Assembly (NCBI GenBank): GCA_019637115.1
Contig: JAHBWH010000078.1
Span: 1-34,523 of the forward strand
Reading direction: 5' to 3'
Length of the DNA: 34,523 nt
DNA from: Myxococcales bacterium
GTDB taxonomy: Bacteria > Myxococcota_A > Polyangia > Polyangiales > Houyiibacteriaceae
In this document: in pieces, positions 3,401 to 34,523 of the stretch
Numbering within the stretch: the first letter of the stretch is position 1
How the letters are laid out: each line of letters begins with the position of its first letter
Position numbers and translations under genes: made by a program
The notes under the pieces: generated by a model
What the model saw: the letters and a program-made list of their open reading frames with translations, nothing else
Database searches by the model: none
What the model was told of the DNA's origin: nothing

Positions 3401-4627
3401 ATGATCACCGACAAGCTCCTGCAGATCCTCCCCGAGAAGGTGCGCACCCGGATCGAGCCCTACGCCGAGGCGCTCGAGCTCATGAGCGAGGTCCGCGACC
3501 CGAAGGTCGCCGCCTCCCTCGGCCCGTCCAGCGTGCGCGGCCTGCTGCTCCAGCGCGGCAAGCAAGGCGTGCCGACGAAGATCCCCGCCCGCCATGAGGC
3601 CTACTTCGACTGGACGTACCCGAGCGACCACGCGGAGATGCTCGAGCTCTACCGGCGGGCCAAGCAGAACCAATGGGATGGCGACACCTGGCTCGACTGG
3701 TCGACGCACGTCGACCCCGAGAACCCCGAGGTCGCCATCATCCCCGACAACTTCCTCAACTTCGAGAAGCTCGAGGGCTACATGGGCGTGCGGATGACCC
3801 CGCGCGAGCGCGCGAAGGTCCGCTCCGACGTCTGCGCCTGGCAGCTCAGCCAGTTCCTCCACGGCGAGCAGGGCGCGCTCTTCGCCGCCGCGCAGGTCAC
3901 CGAGGCCGTGCAGTTCTTCGACGGCAAGCTCTATGGGGCGACGCAGGTCGTCGACGAGGCGCGCCACGTCGAGGTCTTCCACCGCTACCTCGATACGAAG
4001 CTGCAGAAGCTCTACCAGATCAATGACAACCTCTTCGTCATCATCGACGCGCTGATGAGCGACTCCCGCTGGGACATGAAGTTCCTCGGGATGCAGATCA
4101 TGGTCGAGGGGCTCGCGCTCGGCGCCTTCGGTACGCTCTACCGCCTCACCGAAGAGCCGCTGCTCAAGGAGCTGCTCAAGAACGTGATCCGAGACGAGGC
4201 CCGCCACGTGCACTACGGCGTGCTCGCGCTGCGCGAGCATTTCCAGAACCACATCAGCGAGCGCGAGCGACGCGAGCGCGAGGATTGGTCGTTCGAGGTC
4301 GCGCTCCTGATGCGCAACCGCTTCCTGGCCTACGAGATCTACGAGGAGCGCTTCGAGGGGCTCATCACGCGTGCGCAGTGGCGCGACGTCGTCTCGACCT
4401 CGCCGGGCCTCGAAGAGTTCCGCCACGTGATGTTCTCGCGCCTCGTGCCGAACCTCCGGGAAATCGGCCTCTTGAGCGACCGCATCAAGCCGCACTACGA
4501 CCGCGTCGGGCTCTCGAAGTACTTCGGCGGCCGCAGCGCCGATCAGATCTCAGCCGAGGACATGATCTCGGAGCTCGATCAGAAGCGCGCGGAGACCCCC
4601 GCGGGCCTGCGCGCCGCGAACGCCTGA
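3401..4627 (+). CDS. Ferritin-like diiron oxidase/oxygenase
   Basis: This 408-residue four-helix-bundle protein has a complete two-His diiron site: E156 (HGEQ), E186 and H189 (DEARH), E236 (VEGLALG), E266 and H269 (RDEARH). This is the ribonucleotide-reductase-R2 / bacterial multicomponent monooxygenase pattern. The position four residues before E266 is Val, so the third His of the AurF N-oxygenase family is absent. The substrate is unknown; hydroxylation, desaturation or N-oxidation are all possible. It lies 66 bases after the MerR gene, with GAGG six bases before the ATG and a TACTCT -10-like box at 3358-3363, so it may have its own promoter. The reductase at 1158 is its likely electron donor (context inference). 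Confidence 0.85.
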   Translation: MITDKLLQILPEKVRTRIEPYAEALELMSEVRDPKVAASLGPSSVRGLLLQRGKQGVPTKIPARHEAYFDWTYPSDHAEMLELYRRAKQNQWDGDTWLDWSTHVDPENPEVAIIPDNFLNFEKLEGYMGVRMTPRERAKVRSDVCAWQLSQFLHGEQGALFAAAQVTEAVQFFDGKLYGATQVVDEARHVEVFHRYLDTKLQKLYQINDNLFVIIDALMSDSRWDMKFLGMQIMVEGLALGAFGTLYRLTEEPLLKELLKNVIRDEARHVHYGVLALREHFQNHISERERREREDWSFEVALLMRNRFLAYEIYEERFEGLITRAQWRDVVSTSPGLEEFRHVMFSRLVPNLREIGLLSDRIKPHYDRVGLSKYFGGRSADQISAEDMISELDQKRAETPAGLRAANA

Positions 4628-29492: not shown

Positions 29493-31592
29493 TCAGCGCG
29501 AGAGGTCGAGGCGCACGGGCGTCGCGATCCACGTGCCGGGGTCGACGCCGAGCTCGCCCTCGTTCGCCGCGCCCCAGCACCGCACCGCGCCCTCTTCGAC
29601 CAGCGCGCACGTATGGGCCATGCCGACCGCGAGCGCGCTGGCGACCCCGAGCCCCTCTACCCGCACGGGCGCGGCCGAGACGAAGTCACGAGGTCGCGCG
29701 AGCTGCCCCGAGGCGTTCGAGCCCCAACACCAGACCTCGCCCGACTCCGATCGCCCGCACGAGTGCAGGAGCCCGGCGGCCACCTCGACGAGCGGCGGGG
29801 TCGCGAGGTCCACCCAGCGCTGCTCCTGTCGGCAGGTGACGACCAGGTTCTCGCGTCGAACACACGGCCGGTGCGTCGTCACGAGCTCGATGGCGTCCTC
29901 CGGCGCGTCGAAGGTCTCCTTCACGGTGAACACGCCGGTCAGCGACGAGTACGCGACGCGGGTGATCTGCCCAGGCCCGCCGACGAAGAGATCACTCCCA
30001 GCGCTCGCCAGCCAGCGCGCGCCCGTGATCTCCGGCGCCCGATCCCACTCGGCGCGCCGACGGCACTCGAGCGCGCCCTCGCTGGTCAATCGACACGGCT
30101 GAGAGCCCTCGAGCACGCGCCCCTCGATCGTCTCGCTCGGGCAGCGGAGGCTCTCGCCGAAGCGCGCGCAGACGCGCCCTCCGAACGAGACCGGGACGGC
30201 CTCGCTCGGGGCGTCGATCGGTGCCGGTCGCCAGGGCTCGGCGCGCCTGTCCGTGCTCGACGCGGGGCCCCAGCATCGCCAGCCGCTGCTCGTGCGCGCG
30301 CACGTGCGCTGGCGGAGCGCCACGATCGCCTGCGCGCGGAGGCCCGCGACCTCGACGGGCGCGACGGCCTCGCGCTGGCGCGACGCGCCGAGCGCGCCGT
30401 CCGCCGCCGAGCCCCAACAGAACAGCGCGCCCTCCGCGTCGAGCGCGCACGCGTGGCTCGCGCCGACGACGACGCGGCGGGGCTCGGCGACGGCGGGGAA
30501 GCCGGGCTCGGCTGGCGTGTAGGGGCGCGCGTCGGATGCCACGCCCGCGCGCCCGAGCCGGCCGTAGCGTGGGTCGCCCACGCACTCGACGCGTCCGGCG
30601 CGCAGCCCGCAGCCGAAGGGCTCGGTCGACGAGAAGGCGAAGGCGTCGAAGCCATCGAAGCGACGCACCCGAGCAGAGCCGCGGTCCGGGAGGTCGACGC
30701 CGAAGGCCCAGTCGCCCCCCCAGCACCGCGCCTCACCCGCCTCGTCCCACGCGCAGGCCAGATCAGCGCCGACCGCGACCCGCGCGGCGCCGCTCACGCC
30801 GCGCACGTTCGACGGTCGAACCCGCTCCGCCGGATCGCCCCACTCCTCCCAGCAGCGGATCCCGCCGCCCTCGAGGCGCGCGCAGGCGGCCCCCTCCGAC
30901 ATGGCGAGGTCGACCGCGCCAGCGATCGTGAGGCGCCTCAGCGGACGCGTGGACTCCGCGAGGAAGTCCCAACAGATCACGCGATCCTCGCCCCCGAGCG
31001 CGCAGACGACCGTGCTCGACGCCGCGAGCGCGCGCACGCCGCCCTCGACCGCGAAGCGCAAGCCGTCCCGCCTGCGCGCGTCGAGGAAGGCGGTCTCGCG
31101 ACGGTCGACGCACTCGGGGTCTCCTTGGCATCGCGCTTCCCATCGCGCGCTCGCGGCCTCGTGGCCGACCGTCTCGGCGGCCTCGCCGAAGCAGCGCACG
31201 TCAGGGCCCTCGCGCGCCGCCAAGCAGACCGCGCCCGGCAACGCGGCGAGGAGGTCGGCCTCCACGCTCGGCAGCTCGCTCGGCGGGGTGCCGGCGCACT
31301 GGAGGCGACGCGCGACCAAGGCGCAGGTGAAGGTGTCGCCCGCGGCGAGCGCGCCAGCGGTCTGCCCCTCGACCCCGTCCGCCCGCGGGTTGTCGTCCGG
31401 GGCCACGTCCGAGGCTTCCGTCGATGCGGTCGGTGGCGCCTCCGTCGACGGTCCTTCCGGCGATGCCGTCGCCGACACCTCCGGCGTGGACGCCGCCGAC
31501 TCGCTCGCGCTGGTCGGCGTCGTGGCGGGCGCCGCGTCGTCTCCACACGCGCTCGCGAAGAGCGCCGCGATCATCCACCCCCATCGCTTCAT
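29493..31592 (-). CDS. RCC1-repeat lipoprotein
   Basis: A 699-residue lipoprotein with signal peptide MKRWGWMIAALFASAC (C16). A Ser/Thr/Ala/Glu-rich linker of ~70 residues follows, then RCC1-like beta-propeller repeats recognised by recurring CAL/CA...(V/I)xCWG signatures (IRCWEEWGD, ARCWGGDW, LFCWGSAADG, WRCWGPAS, VWCWGSNASG, VRCWGAANEG). The middle repeats are degenerate. Bacterial RCC1 proteins usually bind proteins or ligands at the surface and are not GTPase exchange factors. Start ATG 31592 is preferred; ATG 31604 adds four residues. The upstream region carries a MITE-like element, so its promoter may have been reshaped. The product is probably anchored in the outer membrane. Confidence 0.85.
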   Translation of the reverse strand: MKRWGWMIAALFASACGDDAAPATTPTSASESAASTPEVSATASPEGPSTEAPPTASTEASDVAPDDNPRADGVEGQTAGALAAGDTFTCALVARRLQCAGTPPSELPSVEADLLAALPGAVCLAAREGPDVRCFGEAAETVGHEAASARWEARCQGDPECVDRRETAFLDARRRDGLRFAVEGGVRALAASSTVVCALGGEDRVICWDFLAESTRPLRRLTIAGAVDLAMSEGAACARLEGGGIRCWEEWGDPAERVRPSNVRGVSGAARVAVGADLACAWDEAGEARCWGGDWAFGVDLPDRGSARVRRFDGFDAFAFSSTEPFGCGLRAGRVECVGDPRYGRLGRAGVASDARPYTPAEPGFPAVAEPRRVVVGASHACALDAEGALFCWGSAADGALGASRQREAVAPVEVAGLRAQAIVALRQRTCARTSSGWRCWGPASSTDRRAEPWRPAPIDAPSEAVPVSFGGRVCARFGESLRCPSETIEGRVLEGSQPCRLTSEGALECRRRAEWDRAPEITGARWLASAGSDLFVGGPGQITRVAYSSLTGVFTVKETFDAPEDAIELVTTHRPCVRRENLVVTCRQEQRWVDLATPPLVEVAAGLLHSCGRSESGEVWCWGSNASGQLARPRDFVSAAPVRVEGLGVASALAVGMAHTCALVEEGAVRCWGAANEGELGVDPGTWIATPVRLDLSR

Positions 31593-31642
31593 GCCGCGGA
31601 ACATGGCCGCGCACGTTGCCCACGCGCAACCCTTCGGAGCCA

Positions 31643-31786
31643 ACCCGAGGTTCGTCCGGGTATCCGCGGCCAAGGGCGCGGTTCTCGCTCGCCGACCTCC
31701 TCGAACGGGCTTCGGCCTGTCCAACGCCTGCGCGGCAAACCACCTCCCCCCCGATCCTCCACGGCGACACGGAACGAACTTCAGTC
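31643..31786 (-). mobile_element. MITE-like element, copy 1
   Basis: A ~144-base segment with degenerate terminal inverted repeats: ACCCGAGGTTCGTCCGG at the left and GGAACGAACTTC at the right. Its sequence is nearly the reverse complement of 33878-34023, sharing the long core GCGCAGGCGTTGGACAGGCC on the complement. It contains no transposase. It sits 51 bases upstream of the RCC1 lipoprotein gene and 65 bases upstream of the small-subunit gene, in their divergent promoter region. The ends are worn compared with copy 2. Confidence 0.8.
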
Positions 31787-31851
31787 TGGTGGCACGAGCG
31801 CCGAACCGGATTCGCTTGAGCGCGCGACCGCGAACGCCGATCCTCGCCCTC

Positions 31852-32301
31852 ATGCAGTCCCCTCGCCCCCACGTGCTCCCGCGCGACGCCGCGCACGCGA
31901 GCTGGCGCATCCCCGCGCCGCTCCGGACCACCGCGCGCGCCTTCGCCGAGGCGCTCTTCGCGACTGAGGCCGGCCCTCCGCCGGCGGCGCGCGTCGCGTG
32001 GCTCCTCGACGACGTCGAGGACTTCCTTGGGCGAGCGGGCGGCCGATCGCAGGCCATCTTCAGCGCGAGCATGCTGGCGCTGACCACGCTCGCGCCCCTC
32101 ACCATCGGCGCCGCCCCGCCGCTGGCGCGCCTCGGGTGGCGCGACCGCGTCCGCGCCGTCGAGCGCTTCGAGCAGACCCCGCTCGGGCTCGCCGTCCTCG
32201 GCGCGAAGGCGATGCTCTGCTTCGTCTGGTACGAGCACCCCGACTCGGCGGGTGAGATCGGCTACGACGGCGGCTGCCTCGACGCGGGAGGTGCGCGATG
32301 A
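31852..32301 (+). CDS. Small subunit / N-terminal partner of a GMC oxidoreductase
   Basis: A 149-residue protein. Its helical body (RTTARAFAEALF; ARVAWLLDDVEDFL) and C-terminal ending 'AMLCFVWYEHPDSAGEIGYDG' resemble the region that precedes the FAD domain in long-chain alcohol oxidases, and gluconate-dehydrogenase subunit-3-like proteins. Its stop overlaps the start of the GMC gene (ATGA), so the two are co-translated and probably form one enzyme. A short Met-rich stretch (SMLALTTLAPLTIG) may be membrane-associated. No Shine-Dalgarno or TANNNT box is evident before ATG 31852. Confidence 0.8.
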   Translation: MQSPRPHVLPRDAAHASWRIPAPLRTTARAFAEALFATEAGPPPAARVAWLLDDVEDFLGRAGGRSQAIFSASMLALTTLAPLTIGAAPPLARLGWRDRVRAVERFEQTPLGLAVLGAKAMLCFVWYEHPDSAGEIGYDGGCLDAGGAR

Positions 32302-33863
32302 CGTACGAGAGCGCGCGCGACCACGTGGGCGATCTCCGCCTCGACTGCGACGTCGTCGTCGTCGGCTCCGGCGCCGCGGGCGCGACCGTCGCGACCGAGC
32401 TCGCGCTCAGCGGCGCGCGAGTGCTGGTCCTCGAGGAGGGCCCGCGGGTCGACGCGGCCGAGCACGGCGCGATGCGCCCGAGCGAGTCGCTCCGGCACGT
32501 GTGGCGGGACGGCGGCTTCAGCGTGGCGATGGGCGTCGGCGACTCGCCTACCATCAACGTGACCATGGGCCGCGTCGTCGGGGGCTCGTCGATGATCACG
32601 GGAGGGGTCTGTTTCCGCACCCCCGATCGCGTGCTCGACCATTGGGCCGGCGCGCTCGGCCTGAAGGAGTACACGCCCGCGCGGATGGCGCCCTACTTTG
32701 ACGAGGTCGAGAAGCGCCTGCGCGTCGAGACCGTCACCCCCGACCGCTGGTCGCGCTCGACGCACCTCTTTGATTTCGGCCTCACGCGAGGCACCGACGC
32801 GCGCTTCGAGCGGCCCTCGAGCGGCCCTCGCCTCGGCGCGCGCCTCGAGCCCCTCCGCCGCAACACCTCGGGCTGCCACGGCTGCGGCCAATGCAACTTC
32901 GGCTGCCCCGAGCAGGCGAAGATGAGCGTCGACCTCTCGTACCTGCCGCGCGCGGTCGGCAAGGGCGCCGTCGTCTACAGCCACTGCCGCGTGACGAAGG
33001 TGCGCATGAAGGGGAGGCGAGCCGTCGGGGTCGAGGGACGCCTCTTGAACGGCAAGAACGGCACGCCGAAGGGGCGGCTGCGGGTCGACGCGCGACGCGT
33101 GGTGCTCGCCGGCAGCGCGTGGAGCACCCCCACCCTGCTGGGCGCGAGCGGCGTGAAGAGTCCCCTGCTCGGCAAGAAGATGACGCTGCACCCAGGCTTC
33201 CGGATGCTCGCGCGCTTCCGGGAGGACGTGGAGGGTTGGAAGGGCGCGATGCAGAGCGCGTTCAGCGAGGCGTTCGAGGCGCGTGGGCTCACGCTGGTCA
33301 GCCTCTTCGTCCCCGTGAGCGTCATCGCCGCGACGATGCCAGGCATCGGCCCCGCCCACGTCGCGAACGCCCGGCAGATGCGCCACATCGCGATGTTCGG
33401 CGGGATGATCCACGACGACGGTGGCGGCACGGTGCACCGCGCGCCCGGTGGCGATCCCTTCGTCACCTACCGCATGAGCCCCCGCGATCGCGCCCGCATC
33501 CCGGAGGTGATCCGGGTGCTCGGAGGCGCGTTCCTCGACGCGGGCGCCGAGGAGGTCTTCCCGCCGGTCCTCGGCCTCGAGCACGGGCTGAGCCCGGACG
33601 CCTTCCGCCGCTACGACTTCGAGCGCCTCCCCGCGCGGCGCTTCGAGTGCTCGTCGCAGCACCCGCTCGGGAGCGCGCGCATCGGCGTCGATCCGAAGGC
33701 GAGCGTCTGCGACCCCGACGGGCGCGTTTGGGGGGCCGAGGAGCTCTACGTCGTGGACGGAAGCGTCCTGCCCACGAGCCTCGGCGTGAACCCGCAGGAG
33801 TCGATCATGGCCGTCGCGACGCGGCTCGCGTGGACGATGCGCGACCGCCCCTACGCGGCCTGA
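32298..33863 (+). CDS. GMC-family FAD oxidoreductase (long-chain alcohol/sterol-type) with Cys cluster
   Basis: A 521-residue flavoprotein. The FAD-binding Rossmann motif is VVVGSGAAGATVA (20-32). A second GMC block (GRVVGGSSMITGG, ~91-103) and the C-terminal signature with the catalytic His (SSQHPLGSARIG) and NPQESIMAVATRLA are present. Residues 193-203 hold C-x2-C-x2-C-x3-C-P, the spacing of a [4Fe-4S] ferredoxin motif; Cys-rich inserts also occur in relatives of long-chain alcohol oxidases. It probably oxidises a lipid-like alcohol to an aldehyde or ketone, passing electrons to a carrier rather than oxygen if the cluster is real (inference). It is co-translated with the small subunit upstream. 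Confidence 0.9.
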   Translation: MTYESARDHVGDLRLDCDVVVVGSGAAGATVATELALSGARVLVLEEGPRVDAAEHGAMRPSESLRHVWRDGGFSVAMGVGDSPTINVTMGRVVGGSSMITGGVCFRTPDRVLDHWAGALGLKEYTPARMAPYFDEVEKRLRVETVTPDRWSRSTHLFDFGLTRGTDARFERPSSGPRLGARLEPLRRNTSGCHGCGQCNFGCPEQAKMSVDLSYLPRAVGKGAVVYSHCRVTKVRMKGRRAVGVEGRLLNGKNGTPKGRLRVDARRVVLAGSAWSTPTLLGASGVKSPLLGKKMTLHPGFRMLARFREDVEGWKGAMQSAFSEAFEARGLTLVSLFVPVSVIAATMPGIGPAHVANARQMRHIAMFGGMIHDDGGGTVHRAPGGDPFVTYRMSPRDRARIPEVIRVLGGAFLDAGAEEVFPPVLGLEHGLSPDAFRRYDFERLPARRFECSSQHPLGSARIGVDPKASVCDPDGRVWGAEELYVVDGSVLPTSLGVNPQESIMAVATRLAWTMRDRPYAA

Positions 33864-33877
33864 CGCCAGTGCCCCCA

Positions 33878-34023
33878 ACCCGAAGTTCGTTCCGGGTTGC
33901 CGTGGATGATCGGCGTGGAGGTCGTTTGCCGCGCAGGCGTTGGACAGGCCGAAGCGTATTCGAGGAGGTCGGCGAGCGAGAGCCGCGCCCTTGGCCGCCG
34001 ATACTCCGGAACGAACTTCGGGT
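33878..34023 (+). mobile_element. MITE-like element, copy 2, with 18-bp perfect terminal inverted repeats
   Basis: A 146-base element bounded by ACCCGAAGTTCGTTCCGG (33878-33895) and its exact reverse complement (34006-34023). The interior matches copy 1 (31643-31786) in inverted orientation with only scattered differences. No transposase is present and no target-site duplication is obvious. It lies 15 bases after the GMC stop, in the 293-base gap before the zinc-ribbon gene. The rest of that gap contains a small direct repeat (ACGCTCGAACGCTC) and a -10-like box. Confidence 0.88.
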
Positions 34024-34140
34024 GGGTACTACGAGATCCGCCACGCTGAACCGCTCGAGACTCATGTGAGGAGGCACCGGCCCTTCGAGCCCGGCGATTT
34101 CGCTAGAGAAAGAACGCTCGAACGCTCCTCGTACCCCCGC

Positions 34141-34156: not shown

Positions 34157-34523
34157 ATGGCAGAGACCTGCCCGCAATGCGGCGCCTCGATCCTCGTGGG
34201 AGCCCGATTCTGCGGCGGCTGCGGTTACGACCTCGTGACCCGGCCGGCGCCGTCGGCATCGGCTGCGCCTGCGGCATCGGCTGCGCCTGCGGCGCCCGCC
34301 GACCCCAAGCGCACGATGCTCGGAATGCCCGCGGTCGCGGTCGGCCCCGGCCCATCACCGACAGGCCCGTCACCGACCGGCCCGTCGCCGACCGGCCCGT
34401 CGCCGACAGGCCCGTCACCGACCGGCCCGTCGCCGGCCGCTCCGACCCCCGCGCCCCCCGCCGGCTCGGCCGGGTTCGTGCCCGTGGGCTCCGCCCCGAG
34501 CGCGCAACCCACCCCCGCTCAGC
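34157..34523 (+). CDS. Zinc-ribbon protein with Pro/Ser/Thr repeats (3' end cut by the window)
   Basis: The frame is open to the end of the window (122 residues seen). It begins with a zinc ribbon, CPQCGASI...FCGGCGYDL, with two CxxCG knuckles. An Ala/Pro linker, then KRTMLGMP, and six PTGPS-type pentapeptides follow, then more Pro/Ala-rich sequence. In myxobacteria such Thr-Met-Leu-Gly motifs recur in disordered regions of zinc-ribbon signalling proteins and may be Ser/Thr-kinase targets (inference). The downstream domain is outside the window, so the function is unknown. Confidence 0.8.
   Translation, partial: MAETCPQCGASILVGARFCGGCGYDLVTRPAPSASAAPAASAAPAAPADPKRTMLGMPAVAVGPGPSPTGPSPTGPSPTGPSPTGPSPTGPSPAAPTPAPPAGSAGFVPVGSAPSAQPTPAQ
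34349..34438 (+). repeat. 15-bp coding tandem repeat (six units)
   Basis: Six 15-base units of the form GGCCCxTCxCCGACx encode the GPSPT pentapeptides of the zinc-ribbon protein; the last unit is degenerate. The period keeps the reading frame. Confidence 0.88.

Follow-up and report, generated by a model that had tools for sequence, protein, structure and literature searches.

Two inverted insertions of a dispersed hairpin element in a Myxococcales contig, and a family of such elements with conserved tips and variable arms

The window analyzed here, a stretch of 34,523 nucleotides that makes up the entire contig 411 of a Myxococcales genome, contains two inverted copies of a short repeat. These belong to an element family that is dispersed, almost always intergenic, and folds from end to end with a defined polarity. 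On balance, we favor the reading that each of the two repeats is an insertion of a long-hairpin element that is non-autonomous, presumably mobile, and recognized by its shape, as a folded single strand. A first-pass annotation of the same DNA had noted the repeats and overlooked that the element forms a single strand-polar hairpin over its entire length, in which the conserved part is the tip and not the terminal repeats.

The near-identical, reverse-complementary pair that had been placed at positions 31643-31786 and 33878-34023 is real, and its limits, which include one 4-nucleotide CNNG-like end per side in the family alignment, are slightly wider (Table 1), giving copies of about 168 to 170 bp each. 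The two share an ungapped core of 141 nucleotides that is 88% complementary. A core covariance model, R1, matches copy 1 at 31660-31768 on the minus strand (107.9 bits) and copy 2 at 33896-34004 on the plus strand (113.9 bits). The perfect 18-bp terminal inverted repeats claimed for copy 2 were found in the sequence as ACCCGAAGTTCGTTCCGG and CCGGAACGAACTTCGGGT, as were the worn ones of copy 1. The family consensus arm is longer, about 30 bp (CTAGTGCCCCCAACCCGAAGTTCGTTCCGG); in copy 2, the right arm is worn in its outer portion. The element has no protein-coding content, and the description of it as MITE-like and without a transposase holds in the broad sense of the term, since it is short and non-coding, carries terminal inverted repeats of about 30 bp and is present in many dispersed copies. 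The family, which the first-pass annotation did not recognize, had no match in Rfam 15 at the gathering threshold (matches in a lax scan fell far below the gathering scores) and none in a plasmid collection.

Table 1. Coordinates, in window numbering, of the hairpin copies, their parts and the operon between them.
Feature	Position	Strand	Basis
Copy 1, subfamily A hairpin element	31631-31798	minus	Family alignment; outer arm worn; lies in the gap between divergent genes
Copy 1, conserved hairpin tip	31698-31728	minus	Sequence and alignment
Small-subunit/GMC oxidoreductase operon	31873-33863	plus	Pfam GMC_oxred_N and GMC_oxred_C for the GMC gene; 31852 is a possible start of the small subunit
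Copy 2, subfamily A hairpin element	33866-34035	plus	Family alignment; begins 3 nt past the GMC stop codon
Copy 2, 5' arm of hairpin, CCAGTGCCCCCAACCCGAAGTTCGTTCCGGGT	33866-33897	plus	Sequence; fold pairs the 5' arm with 34004-34035
Copy 2, conserved hairpin tip, GGCGTTGGACAGGCCGAAGCGTATTCGAGGA	33936-33966	plus	Sequence; tip conserved across families
Copy 2, 3' arm of hairpin	34004-34035	plus	Sequence and alignment; outermost bases worn

A search of the source genome (8.88 Mb, 434 contigs) yielded at least 40 scored copies of subfamily A, to which both window copies belong, among 302 first-look candidates. The best subfamily A matches are 94 to 96% identical to copy 2, and the lowest E value, 7e-82 for the window itself, was followed by 2e-66 for the next match. 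The arm consensus matched the genome 103 times with three or fewer mismatches, compared with 0 matches for a reversed control pattern, an abundance well above chance. Two further subfamilies occur in the same genome: subfamily B with about ten copies and 15 arm matches, and subfamily C with at least five copies, found by the tip motif alone. The element measures 163 bp between its CNNG ends and about 165 to 170 nucleotides as a whole (181 in subfamily C), and identical or near-identical cores lie at unrelated loci. With genes called by a purpose-written codon-usage gene caller, 29 of the 30 copies with flanks were intergenic; in 8 of the 30, the TAG within the element's CTAG serves as the stop codon of the adjacent gene. 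No orientation bias relative to neighboring genes is evident among the 30. Most of the genomes are fragmented metagenome-assembled genomes (MAGs) whose contigs often end in these repeats, so the copy numbers are minimum values and genes enclosed by the repeats could be missed. Some copies are rearranged. At L072 (G000:C275, about 640-960), a subfamily B copy directly adjoins a subfamily A arm, and A/B fusions also occur at L066 and L211. Forms of about 40 bp, CTAGTGCCTC...GAGGCACTAG, at L188 (about 2030-2070) and L189 (about 3520-3560) in G007 appear to derive from the hairpin by deletion, and at L180:2254-2500 (G001:C276), a different inverted-repeat insertion, about 100 bp long, splits a hairpin copy.

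The first-pass annotation had seen in the two repeats and the gene pair between them the shape of a composite transposon. The gene pair is a conserved operon, with orthologues in G001, from the same genus, and in G006, G009, and G015, from the same family, and no element was found in the flanks of about 1.5 kb around these orthologues, the upstream side in G001 running off its contig. A composite transposon would move as a unit and be absent as a unit from relatives; here, four relatives carry the operon without the elements, and we therefore read the two repeats as independent insertions, neither a composite transposon nor a local duplication. Copies 1 and 2 are 88% alike, whereas copy 2 is 90 to 96% like many others, so the two are not each other's closest relatives and did not arise by local duplication. 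What the annotation had offered as grounds for a local inverted duplication, only two copies in the genome and the same sites occupied across the genus, is not what was found: there are dozens of copies elsewhere, and the orthologous flanks are free of the element. A composite transposon or a local inverted duplication around the oxidoreductase pair would explain why inverted copies flank it, but in view of these comparisons, we regard either as very improbable. The operon genes are host sequence that received two insertions, and not cargo. Inversion of the operon through recombination between the copies is possible. Elsewhere in the window, a gene at 29493-31604 on the minus strand, transcribed away from copy 1, encodes an RCC1-repeat protein with a lipoprotein-like signal, and a 15-bp tandem repeat of the GGCCCGTCACCGACC type lies at 34347-34436, inside a gene that starts near 34157 and has a zinc-ribbon-like CxxC motif.

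Of 183 genomes of the order searched with the R1 model under strict filters, 11 from five families were found to carry the element, and a search with the tip motif found members in two genomes that belong to a different family within the class. The carriers that have names are MAGs: Prado145 (Myxococcota), Sandaracinus sp. NAT131, and Deltaproteobacteria HCUG1432-5. Distant members, too, fold over their full length into a hairpin, and their arms differ in sequence yet remain complementary. When GTDB genomes were scanned with an exact pattern, alignment across the element was limited to three relatives; the remaining matches barely extend past the pattern and resemble matches by chance or to coding sequence. 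Among the genomes scanned, the element was found only in Myxococcota, and the tip motif had no match in IMG/VR. No description of this hairpin family was found in the open-access literature.

The tip reads GACGAAGGAC...ATTCGAGGA in most subfamilies, and on the strand bearing it, the tip strand, the element folds in its entirety as one hairpin. The fold of the copy at L007 is predicted at -132 kcal/mol on this strand versus -104.5 on the complement, and that of copy 2 at -95.2 kcal/mol (z -5.9) versus -75.8 (z -3.1); the decayed copy 1 folds unremarkably (z -0.7). RNAalifold, applied to 34 copies from four genomes, gave 55 pairs, 26 of them with double-sided changes, and at several of the pairs almost every copy has G.U. 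With a symmetric aligner, G.U pairs outnumbered A.C mismatches on the tip strand in all of the 15 groups, which indicates that selection acts, or has acted, on one particular strand in its folded form. Across families, double-sided changes were seen at 21 of 28 core pairs in 34 matches, and the covariation score of these matches, in an alignment fitted to the model, was 0.412, compared with 0.160 for shuffled and 0.032 to 0.091 for slid structures. Mean identity among 15 representatives was 0.59 in the arms (shuffled arms, 0.51) versus 0.82 in the tip, and the distance from the tip to the 3' end was 66 to 70 nucleotides in 14 of the 15, the representative of subfamily C having 82. What is conserved, then, is the tip, the internal loops, the G.U pairs, and the length of the arms, the sequence of which is near random between subfamilies and still complementary.

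An enzyme that reads terminal repeats by their sequence would be expected to keep the arms constant and leave the tip free to vary, and the data show the reverse, which favors recognition of a folded strand. The competing view is that of an ordinary MITE, moved by a DDE transposase that acts on double-stranded terminal inverted repeats, with the hairpin a by-product of their length. DDE transposases of the IS630 or IS5 type prefer CTAG or TA, and the near-perfect repeats of about 30 bp and the CTAG-like ends would fit such an origin. Most members start with CTAG or CNAG and end with CTAG or CTNG, those of G386 and G485 differing. For 10 of 23 copies, the flanking CNNG has the same inner dinucleotide on either side (P of 0.03 by shuffling), an agreement that also suits a DDE transposase and leaves a 2- or 4-bp duplication possible. 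Yet near-identical copies often have unequal ends, as in L017 (ATTC/CTAG) and L018 (CTAG/CCCG), the cores of which are identical; a fixed-length target duplication is therefore not established. Most sites lack a clean duplication, and some element ends look imprecise; the comparisons yielded no empty site exact to the base. The arms also differ between subfamilies within one genome where the tip does not, the covariation and the G.U bias extend deep inside the element, and among the sampled loci, the arms neither surround a DDE transposase nor bound a parent element on both sides. Most of the unpaired subfamily A arms, considered as marks of a parent insertion sequence, proved to belong to copies that are truncated, rearranged, or located at the end of a contig, or to nested insertions. 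Taken together, these points make movement by a DDE transposase unlikely, although it deserves some weight.

The strand polarity with its conserved G.U pairs, the conserved internal loops, and the proximity of copies to gene ends, including those that abut a stop codon, are also what would be expected of a structured RNA, that is, a transcribed unit whose RNA fold is selected as an RNase III or stability signal or is returned to DNA by a reverse transcriptase. A host or RNA function, instead of mobility, could account for the conservation of the tip and loops. Set against this are the unbiased orientation of the copies relative to neighboring genes and the lack of an Rfam relative, and a single folding strand of DNA predicts the same polarity; we consider a structured RNA of this kind quite unlikely. 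By lying at the GMC transcript's 3' end or in the gap between the divergent promoters, the hairpin might affect the host, possibly as a by-product.

If, as we favor, the element is recognized as a folded single strand, the machinery would read the tip, the internal loops, the fixed arm length, and the terminal CTAG, rather than the double-stranded sequence of the terminal repeats, and the folded strand would then be inserted at CTAG-like sites. Our first hypothesis would be single-stranded DNA acted on by a candidate enzyme of the HUH/Y1 transposase type, IS200/605- or RAYT-like, with an RNA intermediate as the main alternative. The observations that might connect the hairpin to such an enzyme point to it faintly. 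Pfam Y1_Tnp had no match in the source genome, though Y1/HUH-type genes are present. Homologues of one such protein, P0001, searched for in four genomes that all carry the element, have an invariant HxH and Y...N.VAAG, a pattern that we take to be that of Y1 transposases; a second, P0002, matches NCBIfam REP_Tyr_transpos weakly (E value of 1e-4), a match that fails the cut-off. Arm and enzyme are physically linked only in a pair of homologous units with different outer flanks, L058:2846-3756 and L071:3038-3566, the only unpaired A-arm loci to have another interior in common. Their homology begins at a subfamily A arm, the left boundary, spans about 390 bp up to the conserved region upstream of a P0001-type gene, and extends into that gene; the right side is lost at the contig end. 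The link is a weak one: hairpins show no enrichment near Y1 genes (two strong matches in 58 loci, nearly all of them Y1-gene loci), the P0002 type is not co-distributed with hairpins, and the Y1-type element has ends of its own (left, about L093:3181; right, about L093:4927) that do not match the hairpin. This multi-copy Y1/HUH-type transposase element of about 1.75 kb (L093:3181-4927, G000:C135) was recognized by neither Pfam nor NCBIfam. It has a sharp right end, ...GGTACCCGGTACCGACTACT, and a tail that is tandemly duplicated in several copies, and fragments of it lie on G000 contigs C18, C67, C301, C406, C422, C423, C122, C125, and C409.

The form of the element is known in outline from other repeats. 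ERIC (about 127 bp) and YPAL (about 168 bp) are intergenic palindromes of enterobacteria that form one long stem-loop and have no known transposase (PMC2267715; PMC10969869). The hairpins described here are likewise non-coding, intergenic, dispersed, similar in size, and folded into a single long stem-loop, but they come in several arm types per genome that have only the tip, loops, and length in common, and in a different host group. ERIC is a conserved sequence of Gammaproteobacteria; the present family is 165 to 181 nucleotides long, was found here only in Myxococcota, and was compared with ERIC and YPAL by description and through the absent Rfam match. REPINs are palindromic, non-autonomous units that form single-stranded DNA or RNA hairpins with compensatory changes and carry a GTAG motif (PMC3116915; PMC8266576); conservation lies in the REPs at their ends, and the spacer is kept for length and pairing (PMC3116915). 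The present element is also a palindromic hairpin with compensatory changes, with terminal CTAG in place of GTAG, and RAYT-like (TnpAREP) genes are present in its source genome. It lacks the conserved, GTAG-type end REPs of 20 to 50 nucleotides, its end arms being variable and CTAG-like at the ends, and the hairpin matches among the 58 loci and the distribution of P0002 show no association with RAYTs. Its tip-conserved, arm-variable pattern is the opposite of that of REPINs, so that it might be called an inside-out REPIN-like element; it resembles ERIC and YPAL, as compared by description, and REPINs turned inside out, and falls under neither definition. Prokaryotic MITEs derived from insertion sequences are short, non-coding, and mostly intergenic, with terminal inverted repeats and stable transcript folds (PMC10969869). 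The present family differs from these in that no parent insertion sequence and no consistent direct repeats were found and the terminal repeats are the parts least conserved between subfamilies. Integron attC sites are recognized as a folded single strand and combine a variable stem sequence with conserved structural features. That combination occurs here as well, but the hairpin itself is the dispersed unit, and no cassette arrays were seen.

We put forward more tentatively a wider proposal, that this is a class-wide myxobacterial family in which the moving or selected entity may be one folded strand, of single-stranded DNA or RNA, defined by a conserved tip, loops, arm length, and CTAG ends, with the arm sequence free, several arm types per genome, and an enzyme not yet known to act in this way. 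In short transposable elements, the enzyme usually reads the terminal repeats, and these are accordingly expected to be conserved. Here, variability lies in the terminal repeats, and the features that persist, in different families and also outside the order, are the tip, loops, polarity, and size. If the proposal is true, the family would offer a natural system for studying structure-only recognition in mobile DNA and for distinguishing movement as DNA from movement as RNA, and the covariance model R1 provides an explicit means to seek the enzyme and further members.
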